A DNA stretch of 64,000 nucleotides, from the NCBI RefSeq assembly GCF_011064615.1, contig NZ_JAALJH010000034.1:1-64000 (forward strand), given 5' to 3'. The DNA is from Aquisphaera insulae (GTDB lineage Bacteria; Planctomycetota; Planctomycetia; Isosphaerales; Isosphaeraceae). The translations under genes and the position numbers were made by a program. Below the pieces are notes generated by a model. It made no database searches. It was not told the origin of the DNA and saw only the letters and a list, made by a program, of their open reading frames with translations. Position 1 is the first letter of the stretch. Each line of letters starts with the position of its first letter. Positions 3,001 to 21,042 of this stretch are shown here, piece by piece.

Positions 3001-6000
3001 CCGTACGCCGATCTGACCGTCGCCGACGTCGTGGCACCCGCGCTGACCGTCGGCGACCCGGCCAGGGTGACGGTGAGCTGGAAGGTGGCCAACCAGGGCA
3101 CCGGAGCCGGCTCGGCGACCGGCTGGACCGACGTCGTCATGGCCTCGACCGACGACGTGGCGGGCAACGGCGATGATGTCGTCCTCGCCCGCTTCTCGCA
3201 CGCCGGGGCGCTGGCCGTCGGCGAGTCGTACGCGCGATCGGAGACGTTCCGCCTCCCCCCGGCCTTCCAGTTCCACGGGCGGCTCTTCGTCAAGGCCGAC
3301 GCGGATAACGCCGTCGACGAGTTCGACTTCGAAGGCAACAACGCGGCCCGGTCGCCTGGTGCCTTCGATGTGACGCCGAGGCCCTACGCCGACCTGGTCG
3401 TCCGCTCGGTCGTCCCCGGCGCCGGTGCGTCCAGCGGACGAGCGTTGCACGTCACCTGGACGGTCGCCAACCAGGGGATCGGCCTGACTGACATCCCGGA
3501 TTGGAACGACGCGGTCTACCTGGCCACGAGCCCCGACGGATCGGGGGCTCAATACCTCGGAAGCTTCAGCCATCAAGGCCACCTCTCGGTCGGGGCGTTC
3601 TACACTCGCGAGGCCGATGTCGTCCTGCCGAACGGCATTTCGGGCACCTACTACCTCATGGTGGCCACCGGCGGGCCTTATGAGTTTATTTACGGGAACA
3701 ACAACTCGACCGTATCCGCCGCGTTCTCGGTGCAACTGACGCCGCCTCCCGACCTGACCGTGGTCGACATCACGGCCCCGCCCGAGGTCGTGTCGGGCAC
3801 CAAGATCGACCTGACGTGGCAGGTCCGCAACGTAGGGCCGGGCGCGGCGCTCGGCTCGTGGTCGGATTCCGTGGAGCTCCGCTCGACCGACGGCGCCAGC
3901 GTGATCCCGCTCGGCAACTTCTCCTACAACAGCGGCCTGGAGGCCGGGAAGTCCTACACGCGGAGCGAGCAGTTCGCCCTGCCCGATAACATCCAGGGCC
4001 TCTACCGCGTCCAGGTCCGGACCAACGCGAACAACGCCCTGTACGAGCATGGCGCCACCGGCAACAACTTGGTGGCCGACGACGCGACGATCCTGGTCCG
4101 CCTGGCCCCCCATCCCGACCTCCAGGTCTCGTCGGTCTCCGCACCCGATCGGGTCCAGGGCGGCGGCACGATCGCGGTCGAGTTCACGGTGCGGAACCAG
4201 GGGACGGCGATGACCTCGACGCCCCGCTGGACCGACTACGTCTACATGTCGATCGACGACACGATCTCGGGAGATGATATCCTGATCGGGGCTTTCGAGA
4301 ACGGCTCGGCCCTGGCACCCGGCGACAGCTACCCGACCCGCGCCGGAAGCCTGGTGGTGCCCAAGCGATTCCGCGGCGACGCGTATATCCTTGTGCGGAC
4401 CGATGGCAACGACGCCGTCAACGAGTTCCCCAACGAGGACAACAACCTCTTCGTGAAGCCGGTCTACGTCCAGCCGCTCCCCCCCGCGGATCTGGTCATC
4501 GGGGCCGGCGACGTGGTGGCCCCGGCCCAGGCCTTCAACGGCTCGTCCATCGACGTCCGCTACACGGTCCGGAACCTCGGGGCGAACTCCACCGACCAGG
4601 ACGCCTGGACCGACACGCTCTGGCTGATGCCCGACCGCAAGGAGCCCCGCGCGCGGGTCCAGAACCCGTTCAAGGAAGGGGGCATCCTGCTGGGCAGCTA
4701 CTACCACTCCGGCGCCCTGGCCGTGGGCGGGAGCTACCAGACGACCGCCCGCGTCACCCTGCCCGAGACGATTTTCGACGAGAACGGCGTCCAGGTCGCC
4801 CTGTCCGGCCAGTGGTACATCACGCCCTGGGCCGACGCATACGACGTCGTGCTCGAGGATACGTTCTCGAACGTCCTGAACCCGGACGACCCGACCGAGA
4901 CGGACAACAACAACTACAAGGCCCGGCCCATCACGATCCTCGTGGTTCCGCCGCCGGACCTGGTCGTCACGTCGGTCTCGCCGACGGCCTCGGCGGTGGG
5001 GGGCGACTCGTTCAAGGTCCAATGGACGGTCACCAACCGCGGCGCCGGCGAGACGATCCAGGACGGCTGGTACGACGAGGTCTACCTCTCCGACAGGCCC
5101 ACGCTGAACGCGCCGGGCGCGAAGCAGTGGCGGCTCGACAACTACCCGGGCATCCTCCACAACGGACGGCTCGGGCCCGACCAGTCGTATGCGGCCGAGG
5201 CCACGTTCGCACTGACGCCCGAGATCGCGGGCCTGTACGTCCTGGTGAAGACGGGCGTGGGGGCCTGGGAGGGCCCGTACACGACCAACAACACGACGTC
5301 CGCGGGCACCTCGGTCGTGCCGCTCGCGCCGGCCGACCTCCGCGTCGAGTCGATCACGGTGCCCGCGTCCAACTCCTCGGGCGAGAAGGCGACCATCTCC
5401 TGGACGGTCGTCAACGCCGGAGCCTCCGCCTGGGAGGGGACTCGGTACTGGTACGACGCGGTCTACATCTCGCCGGACCCGGAGTTCATCCCGAGCCGGG
5501 CGATCGGCCTGGGGTCGTTCTACCAGGGCAACGCCCCGGGCCTGCCCGCGGGGGCGAGGTACACGCGGACAGTAGAAGTCACGCTGCCCCGTGGCATCGG
5601 CGGCGAGTACTTCATCCACATCGTGACGGACCCGAACGGCGCCCTCTCGGCCGGGTTCCCCAGTAATGACAACAGCCGGGGCTACTTCACGACGAACGGC
5701 TACGAGGATCCGTCGAACAACCTCAAGAGCGTGCCGATCCCCGTCGTCTACCGCGAGCCCGACCTGAAGGTGACGAGCCTCACGGTGCCGAACACGACGC
5801 CGAAGTCGGGCGAGACCATCCGCGTCGGCTGGACGGTCAGCAACATCGGCACCCGCGCCACCCGCGAGGACGAGTGGGTCGATCGGGTCTACCTCTCGCT
5901 CGATCCGTCGCTCGACTTCGGCGATCAGCTCCTGGGCGAGTCGCTCCGGTCCGGCGCCCCGCTCGCGATCGGCGGGACGTACGACCGCACCCTCGACGTG

Positions 6001-9000
6001 TCCCTCCCGGACGGCATCCAGGGCACGTTCTACATCCTCGTCTTCGTGGATTCGAACGTCACCGGCCCCCTGCCCCCGGCCGATCCTTCGCTCCGCTACG
6101 AATACTACTCCGGCGACTTCGTCAGGATGGCGCGGGTGCAGGAGTTCCAGGACGAGGGGAACAACGTGACCTCGAGCTCGCTGCCGATCACGCTGACTCC
6201 GCCGCCGGACCTGAAAGTCTCGCTGGTTGACGTCCCCGCGCAAGTGATCGCGGGCCAGCCGTTCAGTCTGACCTACACCGTGACCAACGCGGGCCCGGGG
6301 GGCACGCCCGCCCGGCAGTCGTCGTGGGACGATTACATCTACCTCTCTCGCGACGCCTTCCTGGACCTCCAGGCCGATCGTTACCTCGGGGCCGTGTCTC
6401 ACCAGGGCGGCCTGGCGGCCGGCGATAAGTACACGATCACCCAGCTCCTCCGCGCCCCTCGCGACCTGACCGGACCGTTCTATGTCTTCGTGCTCACCGA
6501 TCCGCCCCTGTACGGCAACCGCGGCCGGGTCTTCGAGCTGGACAAGGAAGGGAACAACGCCTCCCCCTCTCCACAGCCGATGATCATCAGCGTGCCCCCG
6601 CCGTCCGACCTGCAAGTGCGCACGATCAACCTCCCGGACACGGTGAAATCGGGCGAGCCGATCACGGTCTCCTGGACGGTTGGGAATGAGGGCCGCAACC
6701 CCGCCGAAGGGTCGTGGACCGATGCCGTTTACCTGTCCGTGGATGCCACGTGGGACATCGGCGACATCCCGCTCGGCCGCGTCGTCCACTCGGGGACGCT
6801 CGGCCGCGGCGAGTCGTACACCTCGACCCTCAACGTCGCCCTGCCTCCCGCGCGTCCGGGAAGCTACCGGATCATCGTCCGCCCGGACATCCTGAACGAG
6901 GTTTACGAAGGGCCGGACGAGGCCAACAACCGAACGGCCTCGCCGAACGTCCTGCGCGTGACCGTGGACGAGCTCCAACTCGGTGTGCCGAAGCCGATCA
7001 CGCTTAGCACCGGCCAGGAATTGCTCTTCCAGGTCACCGTCGATCAGGGCCGCACGCTCCGGATCAGCCTCGACGGATCGGCCGTCGGCGCGGCCAACGA
7101 GCTGTTCGTGCGATTCGGTGACGTGCCGACCGGGATCGCCTACGACGCCTCTTATGAAGGCCCCCTGGCACCCGACCAGATTGCCGTCATCCCGACGACG
7201 AAGCCGGGCGTGTATTACATCCTGGTGCGAGGCCATTCCGAGCCTGCGCCGGGGACGCCGGCGACGATCCTGGCGGAGCTGGTGCCGCTGGCCATCACGT
7301 CCATCACGCCCGACTCCGGCGGCGACAGCCGATGGGTGACCACGACGATTCGCGGCGCGCGCTTCGATCCCTCGGCCATCGTCAAGCTCGTCCGCCCCGG
7401 CTTCGCGGAGTACGAGCCGGTCCAGTATCAGGTCATCGACAGCACCAGGATCATCGCCACGTTCGACCTCAGGGACGCGCCCCACGGACTGTACGACGTC
7501 CGGGTCACGAACCCCGGCGGCGAGTCCGCGGTCGTCCCGTACCGCTACCTGGTCGAGACGGCCCTCGAGCCGGAGGTCCGCGTCGGCCTGGGAGGCCCCC
7601 GCACCCTGGCGCCGGGGGCCACGGGGACCTATGGGGTCTCGCTCGAGAATCTCAGCAACGTCGATCAGCCCTACATCTACTTCAAGTTCGGCGTCCCCGA
7701 GCTCGGGGTGAATCCCAACCTCGACCTGCGCTATCTCAACTTCTTCAACAACCTCCGGGGCAGTCCGGATCTCGGCGGCCTGGACAATCTGCCCTGGGCG
7801 AGCCTGGAATCGACCGTCAACACAACCGCGGAGGATCTCGCGCCGGGCTTTGCCTTCGATCTCTATGCCCGCGGCTACGTCGGCATGACGTTCAACGTGG
7901 AGACCTATCCCGGGCTGGCCGAGAAGCTCAAGCAGGATCCCGACTTCCTGCTCAAGTTCGCGGACACGCCGGAGGAGATCGCCTTTCAGTTCTACATGCT
8001 CGCCGCGGCGACGCCGATGACCCGCGCCGAGTTCGTCGCCTTCCAGCGTGAGGAGGCGGAGAAGCTCCGCCTGCGAGCGCTCGCCGATCCGACGGCCAGC
8101 CAGGCCCTCTCGGTCCTGGCCGCCGACGCGACCACGTGGGGCGACCTCTACATCGCCGCGCTCGAGGACGCCGGCCTGCTCCGGCCCGAAGACCAGGCGC
8201 CGCCGATCCGCCAGGATCCGAAGGTGATGAGCCTGGTCGCGACCCTGGCCAGCGGCCTGCTCGTCGGCCCGGCGGGCGACCAGATCGTCACCAACGGCAA
8301 CCTGCTGAACTTCTGGGCGCAGGTCCGCCGCTGGTACGGCAACGACCCGAGCCTCGTCGCGCCGGGCGCCGGGGATGAGCCTCGAATCGTCCCCGCGCCG
8401 GGCTCCGATGCCTACGACCTGAAGATGTCGAGCGCGACCGCCTTCGAGGCGTTCAACCTCTACGTCCCCTTCGGCGACATCACCTTCGAGCGAGGGATCG
8501 CCAAGGCGCCGCCGCCGGATTTCGCCCAGTACTTCAATCTGCCCGGATCCACCACGCGGAACGTGGCGATGACCGGGCCGGAAGGCCAGGGTCCTCGACA
8601 GTTCGTCCCGGTGGGTCAGTCGCTGCCTTACACGGTCAACTTCGAGAACCCGGCCACGGCCGCCTCCGCCGTGGGCGAGGTCCAGATCGTCCAGAAGCTC
8701 GACTCCGACCTGGACCCACGCTCCTTCCGGCTGGGCGACCTTCGGCTGGGCGATATTACCGTGCACATCCCGTCCGGCCGCGGGATCTTCCAGGGCGAGT
8801 TCGATTTCACCAAGTCGAAGGGCTTCATCCTTCGCGTGAGTGCCGGGCTCGACGTCTTCTCGAACACCGCCACCTGGCTCCTCCAGGCGATCGACCCCGA
8901 CACCGGCGAGGTCATCCAGGATCCCGCGCGTGGCCTCCTGCGTCCCAATGACGCCGCCGGCCTGGGCAGCGGCTACGTCGGCTACACGATCGAGCCGCTC

Positions 9001-12000
9001 GAGGCCACGCCGACCGGCACCGAGATCCGGTCGACGGCGCGGATTCTCTTCAACAACGCGCCGCCCCAGGATACCGAGGAGATCGTCTCCACGATCGACG
9101 GCCAGGCCCCGACGACGACGCTCACGGTGGCCCCCCTGACTTCCGGCGGGAGCGACCTCCTGGTCTCGTGGTCGTCGGCGGATGACGGCGGCGGCTCGGG
9201 CGTGAAGCATGTGACGGTCTACGTCTCGGAGGACGGCGGCGACTACACCATCTGGCTGCGGCAATCGACGGCAACGTCCGGCGTCTACGCCGCGAAGCCC
9301 GGCCACAACTACCGCTTCCTCGCCCTGGCCACCGACCTCGCCGGCAACCGCGAGCGGCCCGGCGCGGGCGTCTCGGCCCCCGACGACGGGTCGACCGTGA
9401 ACCTCGGGGCACTCCCCGTCGCCCCCGAGACGACCACCGATGAGGACCTCGGGCCGGTCGCCTCGCCGAGCCCGTCGCCCTCGACCAACCCGCTTTTCCT
9501 GGAGGCCGAGCAGGCCATCCCGTCGGCCGGCAACGCGAGCCGTCCGAGCGAGTTCGCCACGGTCCTGCGGCCGTTCGTGGGCGAGTCGTTCGCCACGGGC
9601 ATCGCGACGAGCCACGCCGGGATCGGGCCGATGGCGATCGTCGTGCTGCCCGATCGCTCGGTGATCATCAGCGGCGGGGCTGGCCGGAACCAGCTCTTCC
9701 GCCTGACGGCGGCCGGCGGCGCCGTCGGGACGCCCCTGGCAACGCTCGATGTTCCCGTCTTCGACCTGGCCCTGGACGCGTCCGGCCAGCTCTGGGCGTC
9801 GACCGGCGGCGGCCCGCTCCTCAAGCTGGATCCCGCGACCGGAGCCGTCCTGGGCCGCTACGGCGATGCGATCACCCAGGCGGTGGCGGTCCAGCCCTCG
9901 ACGGGGCGGGTGTATGTCTCCTCCAGCGGCGGTGTCGAGATCTTCGACCCGGTCTCTCTGACCTTCAGCCACTTCTCGGACGTCCGCGTGGGCAACCTCG
10001 CGTTCGCCCCCGACGGCACCCTTTGGGGCACGACCTGGCCGAACCGCGGGAGCGTCGTTCGGTTCGACCATCGGGGCCGCGCCGAGCGGATGCTCGCATT
10101 CGACACGCCCGTCGATTCGATCGCCTTCGGCCAGGCGGGCAGCCGGCTCGATGGGCTGCTCTTCGTCTCGAACAACGCCGGCAAGCAGGCGGGCGCCGGC
10201 GGCGACGTCGTCATGGTCGACCTGGTCACCCTCAGGACGGTCGTGGTGGCGAAGGCCGGGACCCGCGGCGACATCATCCGGACGACGCCGGACGGGCGAG
10301 TGCTGATCAGCGAGTCCCACCAGGTCGATGTCCTGAGCCCCGCCCTCGCCCCGCGCGTGGCCGCGACCAATCCCGCGCCCGGGGGCGTCGTCGCGCTCCC
10401 GCTCGGCTCGCTCACGGTGACGTTCGACCGCGACATGTACGACGGGCCGGCCGACGATCTGACGTCGGTCCTGAACCCGGCGAACTACGCCCTCTCCGGC
10501 GACGTCTCCGGGGTCATCCGGATCCGGGGCGTGGCCTACGATCGCACCAGCCGGACGGTCGCCTTGAGCGTGGAACCCCTGGTTCCGGACCGCTACTCCT
10601 TGAAGGTCGTGGCGAACGTCCGGAGTGCCGATGGCCTGTCGCTGGCCGAGCCGTACGAGGGACGCTTCACCGGGATCTCCGATTTCACCTCGCAGGTCCG
10701 GGTCAGCCTCAGCAATGTCCGCGTCGATTCCAGGTCTGGCACGGTCACCTACGACGTGCGTGTCACGAACACGTCGTCGTACGACCTTCGCGGCCCGCTG
10801 ATGTTGAGGCTCGACGGCCTCCAGCCGGCCGACGCCCGATTGCTGGGCTCTCGCTTCGATCCGTCCGACGGCACCTTCTGGCTGGACCTCACATCGGCCG
10901 CGACGGGCGGCGTGCTCACGGCCGGCCAGACGACCGCGGTGAGGCCGCTCACGATCGCCTACCCGATCGGCTCCAAGCTGACGTTCCGCCCCGCGCTCCT
11001 CGCCCTGCCCTACCCGAACGCGGCCCCGGTATTCGATTCGCTGCCGATCACGACCGCGACCGCCGGCACCGCATACCGCTACCAACCGCAAGCCCACGAT
11101 CCAGACGGCGTGAGCCTGGGCTATCTGCTGGTCAAGGGCCCGGCCGGGATGACCGTTGACGCGAAGACCGGGCTCGTCTTCTGGGCCCCCGATGCGTCCG
11201 CCCCGGCGCTGGCGCAGGTCATCCTCCACGTGTACGACGCCCGGGGCGGCCGCGGTTCGCAGGAGTTCGCCATCTCCGTCGCCGGGGTGAATGCCCCGCC
11301 GACCCTGGGCGCAATCGGGCCGATCGTCCAGGCCACCGAGGGGCAGCCCCTTGCCCTGCCCCTTCAGGTTGCGGATCCCGAGGGGGACACGCTCCTCTCC
11401 TGGGCCGAGAACCTGCCGCCCGGCGCGACCTATGACGCCGCCGCCCGGACCCTCAACTGGACCCCGGGATTCGACGCGGCGGGGACCTACGAGGACGTCC
11501 GCCTGGTCGTCAGCGATGGCTACCATCGCGTGCTTCGTACGTTCACCATCCTCGTTGCGCCGGCCAACCAGGCGCCCACGCTTGTCCGACCGGCTGATCG
11601 CGTGGTCCGCGAAGGAGACCCGATCCGGATTAACCTCCGGGCCCAGGATCCCGAGGGGTCGGCGCTGACCTTCTTCAGCGACTTGCTTCCCGGCGGCGCC
11701 ACGATCGATCCGGCCACCGGCCTGTTCGAGTGGACGCCGCTCTTCATCCAGCACGGCGAGTACGACATCCCGATCAGCGTGAGCGACGGCGTCAACACCA
11801 CGACCCGGACCATGCATCTGACGGTGCTGAACGTCAACGCACCGCCGGAGTTCGACGACCTCAGCCGGTGGGAGGTCCAGGAAGGGCAGGTGCTCCACTT
11901 CCGCGCCTTCGCCTTCGACCCGGATAACCCGACCTTCGTGCTCCAGACCAGGATGGCCAATGGCGAGTTGACGCCCCTTGAGGAGACGGCGGCCAGTGTG

Positions 12001-15000
12001 ACCTATGCTGTCGAGGGGCTTCCCGCCGGCGCGAATTTCGATCCCGTGAGCGCCACTCTCACGTGGGTGCCCGGCTACGACCAGGCCGGGACCTACACGA
12101 TCACTTTCACCGCCACCGACGACGGCGACGGCACCGGGATCCCCGCCACCGCCACGGCGACCGCCCGGATCACGGTGAAGAACACGAACCGGCCGCCGGT
12201 GCTGACTCCCATCGACAACCTCAGCGTCGACCGCGGCGCGAGCGTCTCGCTGGTCGTCCAGGCGGTCGATCCCGACGGCGACCCGATCCGGCTGTCGGCC
12301 ACGGGCTTGCCGGGCTTCCCCATCCCCGGATTCGCGACCTTCGTGGACAACGGCAACGGCACCGGCCGTTTCGTCTTCGCCCCGAGGCCCGGCGATCGCG
12401 GCAACCACACGATCACGATCGTGGCCGCCGACGATGGCGACAAGGACGGCCCGTGGGCGGTCAGCACGTCGGAAACCAGCTTCGTGGTCACGGTGGTCTC
12501 TCCCAACGAGCCGCCCAGCCTCGCCTTCATCGGCGACAGCGTCGCGATCGTGGGCAGGACGCTTCACCTCCCGATCTCGGCCTTCGATTTCGACGAGGAG
12601 CCCCTGACCTTCACGGCCACGGGACTCCCCGCGGGAGCCAGCCTCGTCCCTTCGTCGACCTACGGCCAGGCCGAGATTGTCTGGACACCGTCGGCCGCCA
12701 CCTCCTCCACCGTGACGGTCCGCGTCGCCGACGGCGGCAACGGCGACATCTCGCGCGGCCTCTTCGCCGAGCGGACATTCCGACTCGTGGCCAGGGCCGC
12801 CAATGCAGCGCCGGTGCTTGCACCGGTCGGCTCGAAATCCGTCACCGAAGGGCAGCTCCTCGGCTTCACTCTCGCGGCAACGGACCCCGACGGCGACACC
12901 CCGAGCTACCGCGTCGACACGCTCCCCCCGGGAGCCTCGTTCGACCCGGCCTCCGGCCGGTTCTCCTGGACCCCCAACCTCTTCCAGGCCGGTTCGTACA
13001 GCCTGGTCTTCTCGGCGACCGATGGGAACCTGTCCGACTCCGAATCCGTAACGATTACGGTGGCGAACAAGAATCAGTCGCCCACGATCGTGCCCCTGGC
13101 CCCGCAATCAGGCCGCGAAGGCGTGACGCTCCAGTTCACGCTTGCAACGGGCGATCTCGACGGCGACTTGCTGCTGAATAGCCTGGTGTCTCCCCTTCCG
13201 GCCGGGGCGAGGTTCGACGCACGGACCGGGCAGTTCACCTGGACGCCCGGCTATGAGCAGGCGGGAACCTACACGCTCACCTTCCGCACCGTCGATCCGG
13301 AGGGCCTGACGGCCACGGCGGACGTCATCCTGAAGATCGAGAACGCGAATCGCTCCCCCTCGCTCCAGGTCTCGAGCCATCAGGTCGCGCTCGGCGAGCC
13401 GCTGACGTTCACGCTCCGCGGCTCCGATCCGGACCTGGGCACCACGCTCGTCTACTCGGCCGTCGGCCTGCCCGACGGCGCCACGATCGACCCGGCCACC
13501 GGTCGATTCTCCTGGCGCCCAGGGCCGGGCCAGGCCGGCGATGCGGTCGTGCAGTTCTCGGTGAGCGACGGCGAGGCAACCGCGATGGTCCCGGTCGTCC
13601 TGCGGGCCGCGATCGTGCCCGAGCCGCCGGCCGTGAGCATCGAGCTGACGCCCAGCTTTCCGGTCGTCCCCGGGCAGAAGGTCCTGGTCCACGCGATCGC
13701 CGCCGGACTGGCTGAGATCGCCGGCCTGACCCTCTCGATCGACGGCCAGTCCGTCACGCTCGACGCCCAGGGCCGGGCCCAGATCGTCGCCGGGGCGCCG
13801 GGCCGTCGCGTCGTCGAGGCGCTCGCCACCGACATCGACGGCCTGGTGGGTCGCACGACGGCCGTGCTCAAGGTCCGGGACCCGGCCGACGAGCAGGCGC
13901 CGACCGTCGCGCTCGCCTCGTCGCTCGCCGGCTCCCGGCTGACGGCGGCCGTGGACGTGATCGGCACGATCGCCGACACGAATCTCGACACCTGGACGCT
14001 CGAACTGGCCCCGCTCGGCTCTGACGCTTACGTCCGGCTTGCCTCGGGCTCCTCGCCCGTCGCGAACGGGCTCCTCGCCCGACTCGACCCGGCGACGCTG
14101 ATCGACGGCTCGTACCGCCTACGGCTGACGGCCACCGACATCTCCGGCCGGACCAGCCGCGCCGAGGTCCAGGTCGAGGCCAGGTCGGCGACCAAGCCGG
14201 CGCGGTATGAGCGCCGCGAGACCGACCTGACCGTCTCGCTCGACGGGGTCACCGTCGAACTCGCCCGCGCCTACGACTCGTTCGCGTCGGGGCAGCCCGG
14301 CTCCTTCGGGGCCGGTTGGCGGATGACGCTGTCCGAGTACGAGATCTCGACGAGCGTGCCCCCCACCGGGCGTGAATCGCTGGGGGTCTACGAGCCGTTC
14401 CGCACCGGCTCGCGCGTCTATCTGACGCTGCCGGACGGCCGTCGCCTGGGCTTCACCTTCACCCCGGTCAAGCTGCAGGTCGCCGGCCTGACCTACTACC
14501 GCCCGGCCTTCTCGGCCGACGCCGGCAATCCTTACACCCTGGAGGGCCCCGAGGCCCGGCTGACGCTCGCGGGCGATCGCTACTTCGACGTCCTCACCGC
14601 CCGGCCTTACAATCCGGCCAGCCCCGAGTTCACCGGCTTCGCCTACACGCTCGTCGGCCTCGATCGCAGCGTAATTCGGCTCTCCGCCTCGGGCGAGGTG
14701 CTGGAGCAGGTCACGCCCGACGACCGCAAGCTGATCGTCCGCGACACGGGGATCATCGGCCCGGCCGGTAGCACGATCCAGTTCCTCAGGGACGCGTCCG
14801 GGCGGATCACGACCATCCTCGCCCCCGACGGCACCCGACTCAATTACGAGTACGACTCCGCCGGCCGGCTCGTGTCCGCCCGCAACGTCCAGAGCGGGCA
14901 GGCCAGCCGCTACGGCTACGACGCCGCCGGGCGGCTGACGCTGGCCGTCACGCCGACGGTCGCAACCAGCCAGGTCGTCGTCTACGGTCCGACGTCCGCC

Positions 15001-18000
15001 CAGCCGCTGACGCTCGCCGGCAACCTCGGTGGATCGGGGCAGTATCTCGCCGCGCCCACCGCCGGGAACCTCGCCGCCGGCCGGACCGACCGGTACGCAT
15101 TCGCCTTGCGGCCGTCCGAGCGGCTCGCCACCGCCTCGGGCCGCGTGCTGCTGTCGGTCGAGATCAAGACGGCGACCGGGAGTTCGTTCCGGCCCGCCAC
15201 GCCGAGCATCGCCGGCCTCACCCCGCTGGTGGTCCGGACGACGGTCGGCGGTGCATACGCCCTGTTCCTCGCGGATCGCGACGGCCTCTTCGAGCTCGAC
15301 ATCGCCGGCGCCGATACGTCTTCATCCGGCGGCTACACGCTGGCCCTGTCGGTCGTCGGCGACGTCGACGGCAATCGGAAGGTCGACGGCGTCGACTCCC
15401 AGCTCCTGCAGGCGGCGTTCGGCAAGTCCGCCGGCCAGCCCGGCTACGTCCTTTCCGCCGACACCGACCGCGACGGCGTGATCACCGCGGCCGACGTCCA
15501 GAATCTGGCCTCCAACCTCGGCTTCGCCGCCAACTCGCCGCCGGTGGTCACTCCGACCACCATCCTCACCCACGTGGGCTTGGCGGTCGAGTACACGCTC
15601 GGTACGCTCGTGTCCGACCTCGAGGACGACCCCGTCTATTTCCGCATCATCTCCTCCAGTAACGGAACGGCTCGCCTCAGCCCCGACGGTCGGACTCTCG
15701 TCTATGCACCAATCCCTGGATTTGGCGGTCCGGGAAAGGTGTCAATCCTGGCGGACGACGGCTACGCCATGTCGGCGGTGACCGAGGTGACCATCAATGT
15801 CAGCAGCGCTCCACTGATCCGGCTCGACTTCGCCCAGCGGGCACCGGTGATCGTCCTGGGGAGCCGCATACAGATGGAACTCGTCGGAGACTTCGCCGAC
15901 CAGCAGGATGTGCGCCTGGCCCCTGCCTACGCGAATCTCTCCATCAGGAATTCGGGGATCGCCACGGTTGGGCTCGATGCGGTCGTGACAGGGGTAGGAC
16001 TCGGCGGGACTGCTCTCGTGGCGTCAGCCGGCGGCCTGGTCGCGGCCACCGGAGTGCAGGTCGTGACGTCCGATGAGTGGCTTCTTGGCGATTTCGGCTC
16101 GGCGCTCTCGCTCTATCCTGGCGGCGTCAGTCTGGCTGTTGATGGCACAAGGGCCCTTAGGGTTTACGACGACCCTGAGTTGGACCTCTCGTCGACATCC
16201 TCTGGGACGGAGTACTTCGTCAGCCAGCCCGCAGTAGCGACCGTTGACGCGAACGGCGTGATTACGGCTCACCAGTTCGGTGAGGCCCGAATCATCGCGA
16301 TCAACTCGGGCCGTGAAGGCTCCTTGCCGATCCGGGTGATCGCCCCGGTTGACGGTCCCCTGATTGTAGGGCCGGAGGGTGCGATCGTTCGAGGACCAGA
16401 CGGTTCTACGGTGCAGATTGCCCCGAATGAGCTACCTGAAGGAACTGCCGTCTCAGTCTCCCCGGTGAGCGAGGCGCAGCTACCGGCCGGCTATTCGGTC
16501 CCGGCCGGGATGGCATACCTCGCGGCGGTGAACCTCGACCTGGGAGGCCGCGAGGTCAATACTCCGCTCCAACTCTCCGTGCCGGTCGCGCCGGGGACGC
16601 CGGCCGGAACGAGAGTCTACTTCTTCGCCCAGGGGACAGTCCCGGATGAGGCTGGTGTCGAGAAGCCGATCTGGCTCCAGACCGAAGTCGGCGTGGTGGG
16701 CTCGGATGGATTCGCTCGAACAACGTCGTTCCCGTTCCCCGGGCTTCTCGGAGGTGGGATCTATCTGCTTGCGGTCGGCGTCGTCGCCTTTGAACTCGTC
16801 CTGATCGACATCGGGAATGATCTAGCCTCTGGTACGGCGATCGTCGCACCTCAGTACGTTGATACCGCTCCTCTCCTCGGGATCCCATTCGGGTGGATTC
16901 CCGGTTATTTCACCGGTGCATTATTCATGCGTCCGGGGAACGCTCAGAGCGTCAAGGTGGTCCAGCCGAGCGTCGCGGGACCGCCACGAATCGACACGCT
17001 GACATTCGACGTGGGCTCTGGGACCAACAGGGTTGTGGCCAGGGTCCAGCCGAACTTCGCGGGGGCGACCGGTCGAACGTTGGAGAGCCCAGCCATCACC
17101 GAGACGAGCCTGGAGTTCGAATCCGACGATACCCCGGTGCTGACCATCAGAGGAGAGGGATTCGCTTCAACCACGACTGCCAGAACCGAGGTCGTATTCG
17201 TCCTCGGCCAGTCCGATGTGGAGAGTCGGACGGCGAGCGGGCAGATTGATCTGCTCAGCTTGCCGCGCGATGTTATTGTGACCGACTTCATCTCCATCAG
17301 CGCGACTGAGATCCGGCTCAGGGTGCCGAGGACGGTCCCACTCGGCCTGGCAAGCATCTTCGTCGCCCGCCGACCGGTGAGTACCCCATATCCGGCAGTC
17401 ACGCCATCGACTCCGGTTCGGACGGCGACCAACCTCGCGACGTTCCGGTCGGTGCCTCGACGCAACGCGACGGATCTGAGCCTGGAAGCCACTTACCTGC
17501 GTTCGAACCAGATCCAGGTTCCGTTAGCGGACGACCGCCTGCTGGGCTTCGTGGTGAACTCGTCAGGCCCATCGGTCTACGTATTTGACACAGGAGACTC
17601 CGGCACGTCCCGTACTCCGGTGTTCCTCCAGGAGATCGAAATCGTGGGGCCAGCCGGTGATCGACCTTTCATCCGGGATGTCGCCACGACTGCCGACGGG
17701 ACTCGAGCCTACGTCACTTCGCGAGATCATGGCGTTACCGTGATCGACGCCTTGACTTTGAGGCAAATCGACGCCGATCCGGCTCTAACCAATGCCAACC
17801 CAGCCCGCCAGCCGACAGCGGACGTGGATTGGATCCCGGTCAACGGTCATGTCCGTGGGATCGCCATTGATCCGGCCGACCGGTTTGCGTTCTTGGCCGA
17901 TGAGAATGTCGGCATGGTCTATGTGCTGGACATTCGCCCGTGGTCGCAATTCTTCCATCAGATTATCCTCAGCATCCCTATTTCCAATGCGCCGAACGGT

Positions 18001-21000
18001 CTTGAAGGCGTAACGGTGGCTCCGGACGGTGACACCATCTACGTCACCGTCCCCGGACGGGCGACGGCTCAACTGTACGGGACCGGCAACCCCGGGAAGG
18101 TGGTGTCCATCGACATCCGCAACCCGGACCCCTCGTACTGGCGAGTCGGCTCAGCCAAGGGGACCGGAGGCGAATATCCCGCCGGGGTAATCGTTGCTCC
18201 GGGAAACAGGAACGACCCGGATAGGCTCCTCGTGGCGAACATGATCGGCGATTCGGGGGGACTCGCCACATTCGGGGGAGGCGGCCTCGTCAATATTGGG
18301 ATGAGCCTTGGTCAGAGTGACGATTCTTATGACGTGGACAACGTGCGTGACGTTGCCTTCCTTTCTTCCTCGATCTCCAGGAGATCCGTGGACTTTGCCT
18401 TCGTCACCGGCTACAACATCCCCGGAAATGCCGACCAACCTAGCCACTTCCACGGCTATCGCTACCAGAGCCGGTACGCGGCCGGCAGCAACATCGGCAT
18501 AGTTCGCGACCCCTTCGGAACCGGCAAGTTGGTGGCCGGGACTATCCCCATTCCGCTCGGATGGTCGCAGGGCATCTCCCTGACTCCGGACGGTCGATAT
18601 CTGTACGTTTCTTACGTTTACGAAGGCCAGCTTCGGATTTATGACGTTGATCGTATGCTCGATGTCATTGAGGGCAACTCCCAAGACACACTTGACCGCC
18701 GCGCCGTTGACGATCTCGACTCCTCGATCGTCCAGGTGATTGCAATCCCAGGACTACTCCGGGACATCGCGATCCAATCCCCTCGGCTGACCGTCACTGC
18801 GACTGGGCTTCAGGGGGAATCGATTCCGATTGATATCCTCAACCAGTTGCGCAACCAGTTAGGACAGTCGAACGCCCAGGGCCTGCAACTCACACTCACC
18901 TCCTTCGTCGGTGGCCAGGTCGCACTGACCGCGGACGTATGGGCAAATGCCACCCAGAACAACGCGATGAAGAATGGCGTCACGGCGCTCTCTCTCATCA
19001 ATCAGGCCACCCAGTCTCAGATCCTTCAGGCCACCACTGACACTCCCTACAATCCTCCGGCCTTCGATCCCCCCACCGGGCCGCCGCAGTTTCCGGAACT
19101 GGCCGGGCACCAGGATCTTGTGACCCTCGGGACGAGCTTCGCGACCTCGGGGGCGTTCTTTTTCCTGCCGGATCTCTATGCCACGGGATCATTCGCCATC
19201 CCGGTGACCAACGCCGCGTCGACCGCTTCAGGCCAGTTCTCATTTCGCGATCAGTCGGGATCTCTTCGGATAGGACGGATACAGGTCAGAGTCAATCCGT
19301 CGCCGGAGATCAAGCCATTTTCATTCGACACGGCCGGCCTCAATTTCACCTATCAGAACGAAGAGTTTCGAACCATCCCCTACCTGGTGTTCGACGGCAG
19401 AACGGCGGATATCGCCGGCCGATCTGGGATCACGGTCTCGATCGGATATGACGCCGGCCAGCAGTCCGCTCAGACCATCCTGAAGGAATTCACCGCGGCC
19501 GGCGTGCCTCTGTCTACGGCAATTGTATATGCAAACGCATATAATCAAATCCGCAATACAGGTCGTGATTACTTCTGGCGTCATGAGGGAGAGTTCAATC
19601 ACCTGACGACCCGTCAGGCGGAAAAGCTGTATCGTATCGTCTACGAACGTCATGTTGACCTCGCCCGAAGTACGTACAATGGCGCGGGGTTGACGGGGGC
19701 CCCGAGTTGGGAAAACCTCAACGGCACGATCCGGGACATCCTGGTGGACATGCGATACCGAGGCGACTTGACTCGAGGTGAGTTGCAGGGGATCTTCCGG
19801 ACCTCATTGGTCAATAACAGTCTCCAGCAATTCCGAGCGGCACTTGCCCTGTCAACCATGAGCCAGCGTGAGGAGCATCGGCACGATGCCCGGCTCGCCT
19901 TCGTGGACCAGGCCCTCGGCTCCCCTTTGCTCGCGTTCGGCGAGCCGCCCTCCGCCGCTCTCGGTGAGTTGCTCACACCAGAAGTTCTTCTGCCGGTTGC
20001 TGCGGAAGCTCTCGCTCGATGGCTCGGGGCGTCCCCTGGGCTGGCGAACTTGCGCGGCGACATTCACTTTGTGGTTAGCGAGCTACCCCGTGGCGTCCTC
20101 GGGCTTGCTCATGCGACCGCGACGGCTGGAAACCTGGTCATTGAGGTCGATGACAATGCGGCTGGCTTCGGCTGGTTCATCGACCCCACTCCAGGCAACA
20201 ATTCGGAGTTCGAGTCTACGGGCGCTCCAGGGGAGCTTCGTGCAGCAACGGGAAGTCCGGCGTATGGTCAGATCGACCTGCTGACGGTGCTCTCGCACGA
20301 GTTGGGGCATGTCCTCGGGCTCAAAGACCTCGATGCTGAGCAGCATCCGCATGAAGTGATGACCGAGTCCCTGAGATCCGGCGAGAGGAGACTACCTGGA
20401 GCAAACGGCACCGGATTGACCTCTTCAACCACGGCGGAGGCGAGTGGGGTATTCGTCGTGAGCAACGGCTACGTCGCACTCGCCACCGGCGGCAACGACG
20501 ACAGTATGGTGGTCGATGCACGAGCGATCGAGTTCGAGGCTGGGGCAGTTGTGACCATGAAGATGGTCGCGGCACACGTGGGCGATCAAGTCGGACCTAC
20601 CAGGGTTTCGACGGTCCGTCGCGATGACAGGTCCTGGGGCGCCACCTCGGTGATCGATCGAACGCCGGTTTATCGACCACTCTCACTCGATCCGATTTCA
20701 CTCCGCGTCACGGTCTCGACTTCGCCCGCCGGGGCGGGGCCGGACCCCGACGCGGTCGCCGGTTCGCCGGCCTGGGACCTTCCCGAGGACTCCGGCCGGC
20801 TCGTCGCCGACTCAAGCCTCGATGACCTGGCCCGCGTGCTCGCGGCGGACTCGACCGCCGGGGCTGGCGGCGTTCGCGACAACGCGACGCCCTCGCCGTC
20901 ACCGAAGACAGTCCGACTCGCTCGCCGTCAGCGACTGGCGAAGGCCGGCCCGGCGTCGGAGCGACCTCGGCTTCCGTTGAGCCGCCTCTTCCGGCACCCG

Positions 21001-21042
21001 TCGAATCCCGGCCAGAGCCGGCCGGGACGCCTGCTCGACTGA
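1..21042 (+). CDS. Giant multi-domain surface protein (5' end outside window): PPC, CARDB, Ig, RHS, dockerin, propeller, muramidase-like and metallopeptidase-like domains
   Basis: The frame is open from base 1, so the start lies upstream. Residues here are counted from the TTG at 64 (6992 residues). Order by eye: two PPC-like domains (10-230), 16 CARDB repeats (237-2300), a TIG/IPT domain (2408-2500), a conserved block (2500-3015), a beta-propeller (3160-3430), an SbsA-type Ig domain (3430-3540), nine He_PIG/cadherin-like repeats (3655-4515), an RHS/YD segment (4715-4965), a type I dockerin (5098-5160), Big2- and TIG-like domains, a second propeller (5800-6240), a pesticin-like muramidase candidate (6420-6615) and a metallopeptidase-like domain with HELGHVLGLKD at 6745. 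It is probably secreted or surface-anchored and used in adhesion or as a scaffold for hydrolases. Codon use drops in GC from about 15.6 to 20.7 kb. The domain calls are family knowledge; the overall role is inferred. Confidence 0.9.
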   Translation, partial: VESNNSATLANRITLTEVLTGLALAGARGSLSTDSDTDYWSFEGTTGQVVSFSTENPGSQPYTGLQYSITGPGGSYVGSYGSYDGRNQSRLTLTSSGTYTIRVGRYYNYAGEYRITLASASQPLELAADNGDTISAASPIKLTTFGSSRLGSIAGAISGPGDLDYYSLGTIDAGETVRLSLRRPAGSTLLPAVSLYDAANGYLVEDFGQVPFDDIAQIRIPYRGVFYAVVWGRNGTGGPREYYVLDVQVGPSGPATVPNLQVSAVVTPTATDLRSGGPVQFSYTVRNSGLLATQVPAWSDRAVLSKNSVAGDADDIPLGLFRHEGALAVNGSYTATINTTLPDGIDGPYYLIISADALNEVNEFLDERDNSRVSGSTFRVTRAPYPDLVVESITPSGGDANGLVTISWQTANRGTIAATGGFRERVTVTDKAGGYVVYDRTYEVSGDLATGAIRAGSDQFYLTYGRVYTVRVTTDSGGRLYEYNDTGHEAAEANNVRDLDFTAQQLADADLVVSVFTAPTSLLVGDPATAALSWTVENRGESTGSATRWIDRVVLSRDAVLGNGDDVTVVEVEHTGALATNGSYSVSRSVTLPGGLSGDYTLFVVADATGQVSEGGDESNNASAGRAIEVVPRAFADLVVDTISAPGAVRSGGSVTVGWTVSNRGIAATGAGPWIDRVVLSSDAVLDTGDLELARVSHGGSLAVGGSYPATATAVVPNGISGTYYVFVTTDAGEVLYEYRYEANNTLRAADPVVVSLTPPDLKVTSISNPTRGQAGQVAHMAWTVKNDGTGSADGSWDDRVYISANGSLSGATLLTTVRRTSSLAVGASYSASADVSLPDLADGSYTILVVTDASGEVYEDQFEGNNTTASSSVLVLGHPDLAAQVLSLPASAVAGTSITVRWSVRNTGTEVATAPWADRVYLSTDGTLDPQDILLVEVARASSLAQGASYEAQAAAVVPPIGQSGTYYLIIRADAGEKVAESGSEANNVALSSIRLAREPYADLTVADVVAPALTVGDPARVTVSWKVANQGTGAGSATGWTDVVMASTDDVAGNGDDVVLARFSHAGALAVGESYARSETFRLPPAFQFHGRLFVKADADNAVDEFDFEGNNAARSPGAFDVTPRPYADLVVRSVVPGAGASSGRALHVTWTVANQGIGLTDIPDWNDAVYLATSPDGSGAQYLGSFSHQGHLSVGAFYTREADVVLPNGISGTYYLMVATGGPYEFIYGNNNSTVSAAFSVQLTPPPDLTVVDITAPPEVVSGTKIDLTWQVRNVGPGAALGSWSDSVELRSTDGASVIPLGNFSYNSGLEAGKSYTRSEQFALPDNIQGLYRVQVRTNANNALYEHGATGNNLVADDATILVRLAPHPDLQVSSVSAPDRVQGGGTIAVEFTVRNQGTAMTSTPRWTDYVYMSIDDTISGDDILIGAFENGSALAPGDSYPTRAGSLVVPKRFRGDAYILVRTDGNDAVNEFPNEDNNLFVKPVYVQPLPPADLVIGAGDVVAPAQAFNGSSIDVRYTVRNLGANSTDQDAWTDTLWLMPDRKEPRARVQNPFKEGGILLGSYYHSGALAVGGSYQTTARVTLPETIFDENGVQVALSGQWYITPWADAYDVVLEDTFSNVLNPDDPTETDNNNYKARPITILVVPPPDLVVTSVSPTASAVGGDSFKVQWTVTNRGAGETIQDGWYDEVYLSDRPTLNAPGAKQWRLDNYPGILHNGRLGPDQSYAAEATFALTPEIAGLYVLVKTGVGAWEGPYTTNNTTSAGTSVVPLAPADLRVESITVPASNSSGEKATISWTVVNAGASAWEGTRYWYDAVYISPDPEFIPSRAIGLGSFYQGNAPGLPAGARYTRTVEVTLPRGIGGEYFIHIVTDPNGALSAGFPSNDNSRGYFTTNGYEDPSNNLKSVPIPVVYREPDLKVTSLTVPNTTPKSGETIRVGWTVSNIGTRATREDEWVDRVYLSLDPSLDFGDQLLGESLRSGAPLAIGGTYDRTLDVSLPDGIQGTFYILVFVDSNVTGPLPPADPSLRYEYYSGDFVRMARVQEFQDEGNNVTSSSLPITLTPPPDLKVSLVDVPAQVIAGQPFSLTYTVTNAGPGGTPARQSSWDDYIYLSRDAFLDLQADRYLGAVSHQGGLAAGDKYTITQLLRAPRDLTGPFYVFVLTDPPLYGNRGRVFELDKEGNNASPSPQPMIISVPPPSDLQVRTINLPDTVKSGEPITVSWTVGNEGRNPAEGSWTDAVYLSVDATWDIGDIPLGRVVHSGTLGRGESYTSTLNVALPPARPGSYRIIVRPDILNEVYEGPDEANNRTASPNVLRVTVDELQLGVPKPITLSTGQELLFQVTVDQGRTLRISLDGSAVGAANELFVRFGDVPTGIAYDASYEGPLAPDQIAVIPTTKPGVYYILVRGHSEPAPGTPATILAELVPLAITSITPDSGGDSRWVTTTIRGARFDPSAIVKLVRPGFAEYEPVQYQVIDSTRIIATFDLRDAPHGLYDVRVTNPGGESAVVPYRYLVETALEPEVRVGLGGPRTLAPGATGTYGVSLENLSNVDQPYIYFKFGVPELGVNPNLDLRYLNFFNNLRGSPDLGGLDNLPWASLESTVNTTAEDLAPGFAFDLYARGYVGMTFNVETYPGLAEKLKQDPDFLLKFADTPEEIAFQFYMLAAATPMTRAEFVAFQREEAEKLRLRALADPTASQALSVLAADATTWGDLYIAALEDAGLLRPEDQAPPIRQDPKVMSLVATLASGLLVGPAGDQIVTNGNLLNFWAQVRRWYGNDPSLVAPGAGDEPRIVPAPGSDAYDLKMSSATAFEAFNLYVPFGDITFERGIAKAPPPDFAQYFNLPGSTTRNVAMTGPEGQGPRQFVPVGQSLPYTVNFENPATAASAVGEVQIVQKLDSDLDPRSFRLGDLRLGDITVHIPSGRGIFQGEFDFTKSKGFILRVSAGLDVFSNTATWLLQAIDPDTGEVIQDPARGLLRPNDAAGLGSGYVGYTIEPLEATPTGTEIRSTARILFNNAPPQDTEEIVSTIDGQAPTTTLTVAPLTSGGSDLLVSWSSADDGGGSGVKHVTVYVSEDGGDYTIWLRQSTATSGVYAAKPGHNYRFLALATDLAGNRERPGAGVSAPDDGSTVNLGALPVAPETTTDEDLGPVASPSPSPSTNPLFLEAEQAIPSAGNASRPSEFATVLRPFVGESFATGIATSHAGIGPMAIVVLPDRSVIISGGAGRNQLFRLTAAGGAVGTPLATLDVPVFDLALDASGQLWASTGGGPLLKLDPATGAVLGRYGDAITQAVAVQPSTGRVYVSSSGGVEIFDPVSLTFSHFSDVRVGNLAFAPDGTLWGTTWPNRGSVVRFDHRGRAERMLAFDTPVDSIAFGQAGSRLDGLLFVSNNAGKQAGAGGDVVMVDLVTLRTVVVAKAGTRGDIIRTTPDGRVLISESHQVDVLSPALAPRVAATNPAPGGVVALPLGSLTVTFDRDMYDGPADDLTSVLNPANYALSGDVSGVIRIRGVAYDRTSRTVALSVEPLVPDRYSLKVVANVRSADGLSLAEPYEGRFTGISDFTSQVRVSLSNVRVDSRSGTVTYDVRVTNTSSYDLRGPLMLRLDGLQPADARLLGSRFDPSDGTFWLDLTSAATGGVLTAGQTTAVRPLTIAYPIGSKLTFRPALLALPYPNAAPVFDSLPITTATAGTAYRYQPQAHDPDGVSLGYLLVKGPAGMTVDAKTGLVFWAPDASAPALAQVILHVYDARGGRGSQEFAISVAGVNAPPTLGAIGPIVQATEGQPLALPLQVADPEGDTLLSWAENLPPGATYDAAARTLNWTPGFDAAGTYEDVRLVVSDGYHRVLRTFTILVAPANQAPTLVRPADRVVREGDPIRINLRAQDPEGSALTFFSDLLPGGATIDPATGLFEWTPLFIQHGEYDIPISVSDGVNTTTRTMHLTVLNVNAPPEFDDLSRWEVQEGQVLHFRAFAFDPDNPTFVLQTRMANGELTPLEETAASVTYAVEGLPAGANFDPVSATLTWVPGYDQAGTYTITFTATDDGDGTGIPATATATARITVKNTNRPPVLTPIDNLSVDRGASVSLVVQAVDPDGDPIRLSATGLPGFPIPGFATFVDNGNGTGRFVFAPRPGDRGNHTITIVAADDGDKDGPWAVSTSETSFVVTVVSPNEPPSLAFIGDSVAIVGRTLHLPISAFDFDEEPLTFTATGLPAGASLVPSSTYGQAEIVWTPSAATSSTVTVRVADGGNGDISRGLFAERTFRLVARAANAAPVLAPVGSKSVTEGQLLGFTLAATDPDGDTPSYRVDTLPPGASFDPASGRFSWTPNLFQAGSYSLVFSATDGNLSDSESVTITVANKNQSPTIVPLAPQSGREGVTLQFTLATGDLDGDLLLNSLVSPLPAGARFDARTGQFTWTPGYEQAGTYTLTFRTVDPEGLTATADVILKIENANRSPSLQVSSHQVALGEPLTFTLRGSDPDLGTTLVYSAVGLPDGATIDPATGRFSWRPGPGQAGDAVVQFSVSDGEATAMVPVVLRAAIVPEPPAVSIELTPSFPVVPGQKVLVHAIAAGLAEIAGLTLSIDGQSVTLDAQGRAQIVAGAPGRRVVEALATDIDGLVGRTTAVLKVRDPADEQAPTVALASSLAGSRLTAAVDVIGTIADTNLDTWTLELAPLGSDAYVRLASGSSPVANGLLARLDPATLIDGSYRLRLTATDISGRTSRAEVQVEARSATKPARYERRETDLTVSLDGVTVELARAYDSFASGQPGSFGAGWRMTLSEYEISTSVPPTGRESLGVYEPFRTGSRVYLTLPDGRRLGFTFTPVKLQVAGLTYYRPAFSADAGNPYTLEGPEARLTLAGDRYFDVLTARPYNPASPEFTGFAYTLVGLDRSVIRLSASGEVLEQVTPDDRKLIVRDTGIIGPAGSTIQFLRDASGRITTILAPDGTRLNYEYDSAGRLVSARNVQSGQASRYGYDAAGRLTLAVTPTVATSQVVVYGPTSAQPLTLAGNLGGSGQYLAAPTAGNLAAGRTDRYAFALRPSERLATASGRVLLSVEIKTATGSSFRPATPSIAGLTPLVVRTTVGGAYALFLADRDGLFELDIAGADTSSSGGYTLALSVVGDVDGNRKVDGVDSQLLQAAFGKSAGQPGYVLSADTDRDGVITAADVQNLASNLGFAANSPPVVTPTTILTHVGLAVEYTLGTLVSDLEDDPVYFRIISSSNGTARLSPDGRTLVYAPIPGFGGPGKVSILADDGYAMSAVTEVTINVSSAPLIRLDFAQRAPVIVLGSRIQMELVGDFADQQDVRLAPAYANLSIRNSGIATVGLDAVVTGVGLGGTALVASAGGLVAATGVQVVTSDEWLLGDFGSALSLYPGGVSLAVDGTRALRVYDDPELDLSSTSSGTEYFVSQPAVATVDANGVITAHQFGEARIIAINSGREGSLPIRVIAPVDGPLIVGPEGAIVRGPDGSTVQIAPNELPEGTAVSVSPVSEAQLPAGYSVPAGMAYLAAVNLDLGGREVNTPLQLSVPVAPGTPAGTRVYFFAQGTVPDEAGVEKPIWLQTEVGVVGSDGFARTTSFPFPGLLGGGIYLLAVGVVAFELVLIDIGNDLASGTAIVAPQYVDTAPLLGIPFGWIPGYFTGALFMRPGNAQSVKVVQPSVAGPPRIDTLTFDVGSGTNRVVARVQPNFAGATGRTLESPAITETSLEFESDDTPVLTIRGEGFASTTTARTEVVFVLGQSDVESRTASGQIDLLSLPRDVIVTDFISISATEIRLRVPRTVPLGLASIFVARRPVSTPYPAVTPSTPVRTATNLATFRSVPRRNATDLSLEATYLRSNQIQVPLADDRLLGFVVNSSGPSVYVFDTGDSGTSRTPVFLQEIEIVGPAGDRPFIRDVATTADGTRAYVTSRDHGVTVIDALTLRQIDADPALTNANPARQPTADVDWIPVNGHVRGIAIDPADRFAFLADENVGMVYVLDIRPWSQFFHQIILSIPISNAPNGLEGVTVAPDGDTIYVTVPGRATAQLYGTGNPGKVVSIDIRNPDPSYWRVGSAKGTGGEYPAGVIVAPGNRNDPDRLLVANMIGDSGGLATFGGGGLVNIGMSLGQSDDSYDVDNVRDVAFLSSSISRRSVDFAFVTGYNIPGNADQPSHFHGYRYQSRYAAGSNIGIVRDPFGTGKLVAGTIPIPLGWSQGISLTPDGRYLYVSYVYEGQLRIYDVDRMLDVIEGNSQDTLDRRAVDDLDSSIVQVIAIPGLLRDIAIQSPRLTVTATGLQGESIPIDILNQLRNQLGQSNAQGLQLTLTSFVGGQVALTADVWANATQNNAMKNGVTALSLINQATQSQILQATTDTPYNPPAFDPPTGPPQFPELAGHQDLVTLGTSFATSGAFFFLPDLYATGSFAIPVTNAASTASGQFSFRDQSGSLRIGRIQVRVNPSPEIKPFSFDTAGLNFTYQNEEFRTIPYLVFDGRTADIAGRSGITVSIGYDAGQQSAQTILKEFTAAGVPLSTAIVYANAYNQIRNTGRDYFWRHEGEFNHLTTRQAEKLYRIVYERHVDLARSTYNGAGLTGAPSWENLNGTIRDILVDMRYRGDLTRGELQGIFRTSLVNNSLQQFRAALALSTMSQREEHRHDARLAFVDQALGSPLLAFGEPPSAALGELLTPEVLLPVAAEALARWLGASPGLANLRGDIHFVVSELPRGVLGLAHATATAGNLVIEVDDNAAGFGWFIDPTPGNNSEFESTGAPGELRAATGSPAYGQIDLLTVLSHELGHVLGLKDLDAEQHPHEVMTESLRSGERRLPGANGTGLTSSTTAEASGVFVVSNGYVALATGGNDDSMVVDARAIEFEAGAVVTMKMVAAHVGDQVGPTRVSTVRRDDRSWGATSVIDRTPVYRPLSLDPISLRVTVSTSPAGAGPDPDAVAGSPAWDLPEDSGRLVADSSLDDLARVLAADSTAGAGGVRDNATPSPSPKTVRLARRQRLAKAGPASERPRLPLSRLFRHPSNPGQSRPGRLLD

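Follow-up and report, generated by a model that had tools for sequence, protein, structure and literature searches.

Which enzymes are carried at the C-terminal end of a giant planctomycete gene, and what may they be used for? The question is raised by the window analyzed here, that is, the leading 64 kb of the 90.6-kb contig C238, from a draft genome of 10.0 Mb in 309 contigs. Planctomycetes have an unusual abundance of giant genes of unknown purpose (PMC5177795). Giant genes, domain content and relatives point to a planctomycete as the host of the window. In the window, an open frame of 7013 residues (frame 1, + strand) spans bases 1-21042; it reaches the contig edge (G000:C238:1), and the N-terminus of the protein lies off the contig. 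A first-pass annotation had proposed a muramidase beside a zinc peptidase near the end of this protein. All of its motif strings are found in frame 1 of the + strand, while its residue numbers are 21 too low, because they were counted from a TTG at base 64. This TTG is not the true start, since the frame continues upstream of it to the contig edge, and full-frame numbering is used below. The main features of the gene are the following:

1..21042, + strand: giant ORF of at least 7013 aa, 5′ end open at the contig edge
2278..2607, + strand: CARDB repeats, best of 16 stretches (residues 760-869; Pfam PF07705)
12808..13065, + strand: He_PIG/Ig-like repeats, best of 9 stretches (residues 4270-4355; Pfam PF05345, E 4.2e-71)
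14851..14955, + strand: RHS/YD repeat segment, best stretch (residues 4951-4985; Pfam PF05593, E 1.8e-12; NCBIfam YD repeat)
15301..21042, + strand: C-terminal part with lowered GC3 (~0.7 vs ~0.9 in the core)
15358..15519, + strand: dockerin type I (residues 5120-5173; Pfam PF00404, E 8.5e-6)
17746..18672, + strand: propeller-like region (~residues 5916-6224; homology to the giants G022/G019 stops at 6204/6224)
19345..19911, + strand: pesticin-like muramidase domain (residues 6449-6637; profiles, homologues, AlphaFold/Foldseek)
19981..20400, + strand: matrixin-type metzincin-like domain (~residues 6661-6800; Pfam, homologues, PDB profile search)

CARDB reaches an E value of 1.2e-113 over the entire stretch 1-4666, the Ig-like repeats belong to He_PIG/Big_9 of Pfam, and the beta-propeller leaves only traces by Pfam. 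Antisense to the giant gene lies a 3445-aa open frame (2770-13107, − strand), which, most likely, is no gene but a consequence of the high GC3.

The assignment of residues ~6449-6637 to the pesticin family, as a divergent member, is largely supported. Pfam Pesticin matches residues 6451-6586 (E 1.5e-3, 18.9 bits), and the scores of the window protein, 18.9 to 22.1 bits, stay under the curated cut-off of PF16754 (25.8 bits), as do those of accepted homologues such as L049 and L091. That cut-off is exceeded by three other proteins, encoded by ORFs of 387-504 aa, in a search of 294 genomes of the phylum. When a profile is built from these three alone, with the window protein left out, the C-terminal 300-residue fragment scores 71.8 bits and the complete protein 65.5. 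The alignment used for scanning consisted of the window protein, the three proteins found by Pfam and an additional homologue. With it, the scan of genome contigs returned 241 relatives, of which 80 were retained, chiefly from Pseudomonadota but also from Myxococcota, Cyanobacteriota, Bacteroidota and Planctomycetota. The profile of these 80 homologues gives 117 bits for the fragment, a value that is partly circular, since similarity to the window protein had served to confirm the set, and for this reason the independent three-protein profile matters. Among 5000 shuffles of the domain, the best reached 9.9 bits against ~115 for the real domain under the larger homologue profile.

Other searches were less productive. 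Single-sequence PDB searches with the muramidase domain gave no useful match, PHROGs and PADLOC no informative one, and the scan of viral contigs with the single protein zero relatives; with the alignment, that scan found two relatives only. In the literature searched, no text mentions both planctomycetes and pesticin. Within the family, the pesticin domain is present in one of 45 genomes, namely that of the window, whereas the core of the giant protein recurs. Pesticin-like domains are also placed on other carriers, that is, an RHS-LysM protein (L091) and an eCIS-type protein (L102). The latter, from Sporocytophaga (L102:8999-11857), combines an eCIS core domain, a pesticin-like domain and LysM in one protein and is possibly an eCIS cargo muramidase.

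The zinc-metallopeptidase-like domain announced beside the muramidase is likewise backed by its motif, by profiles and by homologues. Its landmarks are:

20296-20328, + strand, frame 1: HELGHVLGLKD zinc motif (HExxHxxGxxD), residues 6766-6776
20359..20361, + strand: Met6787 of the presumed Met-turn (EVM), an invariant alignment column

From sequence comparison, residues ~6661-6800 appear to form a matrixin-type metzincin of a kind common in giant proteins of the host family and class, a reading that is largely supported. Pfam Matrixin (PF00413) matches the window protein with E 3.5e-3 (17.7 and 20.7 bits, under the cut-off of 24), and all 15 members of the domain family that were tested match it at least weakly. 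The metzincin profile finds stromelysin-3 (MMP11, E 6e-6) and karilysin (E 3e-5) among PDB chains, with ~35 residues at the zinc site as the only part that aligns. The domain resembles M10 metzincins in these matches, in HExxHxxGxx(H/D) and in the Met-turn; it differs from them in Asp as third ligand, in the short alignable part and in a conserved block of its own, GWFxDxTP. The full pattern with Met is present in 22 of 26 metzincin relatives, and the window protein has the Asp version. Across the 59 relatives searched (own genome included), 22 carry the domain, mostly in very long ORFs and in up to 11 copies per genome; a further match of that search, G047, concerns the pesticin part.

This distribution, together with the many different partners of the domain and the conservation of the non-catalytic GWFxDxTP and RRLP, would suit a metzincin that is chiefly a processing or sorting element of giant-protein ends and no effector, beside which the muramidase was inserted. 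The zinc ligands and the Met are retained as in active proteases (the 22 of 26 above), which speaks against it. Such a role is possible though doubtful, and it is compatible with the explanation preferred below.

The pesticin residues E178, T201 and D207 are important for its catalytic activity; in VgrG3cp, a T6SS effector that degrades peptidoglycan, D867A abolishes the activity (PMC9927483). The corresponding region of the window protein contains:

19333..19335, + strand: Ala6445 in FDTAG, at the Glu position in the rival register (MAFFT and pairwise alignments)
19357-19383, + strand, frame 1: NEEFRTIPY, residues 6453-6461
19360..19362, + strand: Glu6454, the favored catalytic Glu (model, fold search and tree for; MAFFT and pairwise alignments against)
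19426-19467, + strand, frame 1: GITVSIGYDAGQQS, residues 6476-6489
19432..19434, + strand: Thr6478, counterpart of pesticin T201, invariant in 83/83
19450..19452, + strand: Asp6484, counterpart of pesticin D207, invariant in 83/83
residues 6535-6554, + strand, frame 1: LTTRQAEKLYRIVYERHVDL
residues 6570-6590, + strand, frame 1: WENLNGTIRDILVDMRYRGDL
19741..19767, + strand: LVDMRYRGD, helix motif conserved in the pesticin-like family (homologue alignment)

The active site proposed earlier held up in part. Thr6478 and Asp6484 are conserved among the homologues, with the same spacing of 6 as T201-D207, while the catalytic Glu (E6433 of the first-pass annotation, E6454 here) is unsettled between E6454 and Ala6445. 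The Glu of the FDxEG motif in the family falls on pesticin residue 178 if ungapped, by alignment coordinates only (profile position 11 is chain residue 180, and the Glu is at about position 9). In register A, E6454 stands 24 residues ahead of the Thr, and in most homologues this distance is 20-27. In register B, FDTAG is placed on FDxEG and Ala6445 is 33 residues ahead of the Thr, like the enterobacterial long-insert group. MAFFT gave register B in both large untrimmed alignments. The highest-scoring single pair (41, with L059) is also in register B; 5 of 300 shuffles reached that score. Across all homologues, the pairwise registers scatter (A6445 28, Q6452 27, E6454 10, E6455 5, the remainder elsewhere), and thus sequence alone cannot decide. 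Around the favored Glu, E..R...Y of EEFRTIPY also fits EGLRLKIY of T4 lysozyme.

Structure models were computed for both registers. An alignment aimed at the E6454 register (A3) brought Q6452 under the Glu and was replaced by A4, which was trimmed further until E6454 stood at the Glu and was chosen to test register A. With the register-B alignment, AlphaFold gave a confident helical core but pLDDT <50 for residues 6448-6472, and Foldseek ranked pesticin first (E 1.2e-3, probability 1.00, TMq 0.53). The trimmed rows of register A yield a pTM of 0.84 and a mean pLDDT of 89.5 (pLDDT of 74 for residues 6449-6458, 61 for 6459-6468); pesticin is found with TMq 0.67 and E 5.2e-4, and T4 lysozymes come next. 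The comparison of models favors register A, with the reservation that length, rows and trimming were not the same in the two runs, that TMq is length-dependent and that B was not likewise forced. A quick tree that begins at the SGIT motif, with the disputed stretch excluded and with long rows placed unsurely, groups the window protein with the short-insert clade (SH-aLRT 92), on a branch of 2.0. E6454 is accordingly only a candidate for the catalytic Glu, with a likelihood judged at about two in three.

The fold claimed by the first-pass annotation, of pesticin/T4-lysozyme type, is borne out by profiles, homologues and the structure search; the fold-library search on the predicted structure returned the two groups in that very order. 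T4 phage lysozyme and the gp5 tail lysozyme are alike as the second-best Foldseek group, with structural scores beneath those of pesticin. The T-x-x-I-G motif of the present domain resembles TIGIG of T4, with the Asp after the Thr here and before it in T4 lysozyme.

If Ala6445 takes the position of the Glu, the enzyme is dead, and the domain would only bind peptidoglycan and anchor the giant protein to the wall. Apart from the two MAFFT alignments and the top pairwise match, three changes at near-invariant positions (His to Asp6470, Gly to Ser6480 and Arg to Ile6481), the long branch and the low GC3 agree with a decayed muramidase relative. On the contrary, Thr6478, Asp6484 and the LVDxRYRGD helix are retained, the spacing of E6454 is that of the majority group and gives the better model, and Ile at the Arg position is also found in a viral relative (L117). 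A dead enzyme is rather unlikely on this balance.

The explanation we prefer, with about an even chance of being right as a whole, is that of a giant protein of planctomycete type in which a long repeat arm (CARDB, Ig-like, RHS, propeller) would bear an exchanged muramidase/protease end for the hydrolysis of envelopes at the cell surface. The pesticin-like module would cut the glycan strand of peptidoglycan via Glu6454, Thr6478 and Asp6484, and the matrixin-type zinc protease next in line may free the module or cut surrounding protein. By analogy with VgrG3cp, L091 and L102, the exported arm would present or deliver the muramidase, most likely against the envelopes of neighbor or prey bacteria, or against debris. 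The attack on cell walls upon contact that had been suggested for this protein is plausible.

An active muramidase could also serve the cell's own wall, in remodeling, budding or the insertion of the giant protein, with no attack involved. Peptidoglycan synthesis genes are reported in Isosphaeraceae, for instance in Paludisphaera borealis, and no immunity gene is seen beside the ORF. However, the domain is missing from the other 44 family genomes searched, which argues against a housekeeping function, and its homologues are placed on carriers of T6SS, RHS and eCIS type. A role of this kind seems quite improbable, though the muramidase may act on the own wall or on debris. As to the lack of an immunity gene, none adjoining the giant ORF was seen downstream (the upstream side is off the contig), and this weakens a reading as toxin; the next gene downstream is GH32-like with LamG.

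The relatives of the giant protein indicate how the muramidase of the preferred explanation may have come to its place. The paralogue C270 of the same genome (11156 aa) shares 45% identity over residues 510-5591, and G022 (a 10255-aa ORF) and G019 share 41% and 36%, respectively, over the stretch from 4601 to 6204/6224 and so across the propeller. Beyond the propeller, C270, G022 and G019 have in common a module of ~600 aa (32-37% identity), followed by various HExxH domains. This module has no match in Pfam and, by its motif (GHSRG in G022, AHSRG in C270), may be alpha/beta-hydrolase-like. The window protein has none of it and carries the muramidase there instead; with C270 it has in common the metzincin alone. 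In G002, a genome of the same genus in which an orthologous giant was looked for, a 6922-aa ORF shares little beyond the metzincin. The C-terminal part of C270 (L120/L121) shows three HExxH-type sites besides the alpha/beta-hydrolase-like module.

A common carrier is thus joined to different C-terminal enzyme modules, with two module types at the junction among the four carriers compared. Judged from these sequences, this looks like the exchange of an enzyme module on a common core, as in polymorphic toxins. Since the muramidase sits where the homologues have the alpha/beta-hydrolase-like module, it probably arrived by replacement of the gene end.

The GC3 fall, with a gradual border at ~residues 5100-5400 and low values up to the end of the protein, is consistent with a 3′ part that was acquired or recombined; the paralogue C270 does not have it. 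Homology to G022/G019 crosses this border, and hence the border of composition is not that of the module, which lies after 6224. The fall within one reading frame begins well upstream of the module border. An assembly chimera with a foreign 3′ end, which could be suspected from the GC3 shift inside the ORF and from a draft of 309 contigs with a contamination estimate of 5.09, is very unlikely, because the frame is continuous, the homology from 4601 to 6204/6224 spans the shift unbroken and the metzincin end is typical of the host family.

Compared with known systems, the muramidase-metzincin end is a new combination of known parts. With pesticin (PF16754; PDB 4AQN) and VgrG3cp it shares the fold, the Thr-x5-Asp motif and the C-terminal position in a larger carrier; it differs in the giant repeat carrier, the very divergent sequence, the unsettled Glu register, the metzincin after the muramidase and the immunity gene, of which none was seen. 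Polymorphic toxins with RHS repeats (PMC3482391) are alike in the long repeat carrier and in differing C-terminal modules, including metallopeptidases and alpha/beta hydrolases. The comparison here covers four carriers; unlike in these toxins, several enzyme-like domains stand in tandem, with no immunity gene seen and no recognized trafficking domain (the N-terminus being off the contig). The giant genes described in Planctomycetes are similarly >20 kb, repeat-rich and presumed to encode surface proteins, and exchangeable enzyme ends go unmentioned in the accessible parts of these sources (PMC5177795, PMC5352709).

Giant proteins may therefore be long arms with exchangeable enzyme tips. Tentatively, and with the balance against it, the giants could be surface-displayed systems of enzyme delivery, in which a common multi-domain arm bears a C-terminal hydrolase (muramidase, lipase-like or protease) exchanged between lineages. 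If true, giant genes that have long lacked an explanation would have a part in microbial antagonism or predation. An enzyme-bearing exchangeable end would be a concrete and testable function for them. The giant protein is also a new kind of carrier for the pesticin-like muramidase, which had been described in a bacteriocin and in a T6SS effector and which the present searches located on RHS- and eCIS-type proteins as well.

Two more repeat-rich ORFs are located in the window. At 26539-31449 (+ strand), a 1636-aa ORF combines NHL/teneurin-like propeller repeats with Big_3_5 and five MBG_2 domains and is, by these predicted domains, another large surface-type repeat protein. At 35618-39454 (− strand), a 1278-aa ORF consists of ankyrin repeats nearly throughout.
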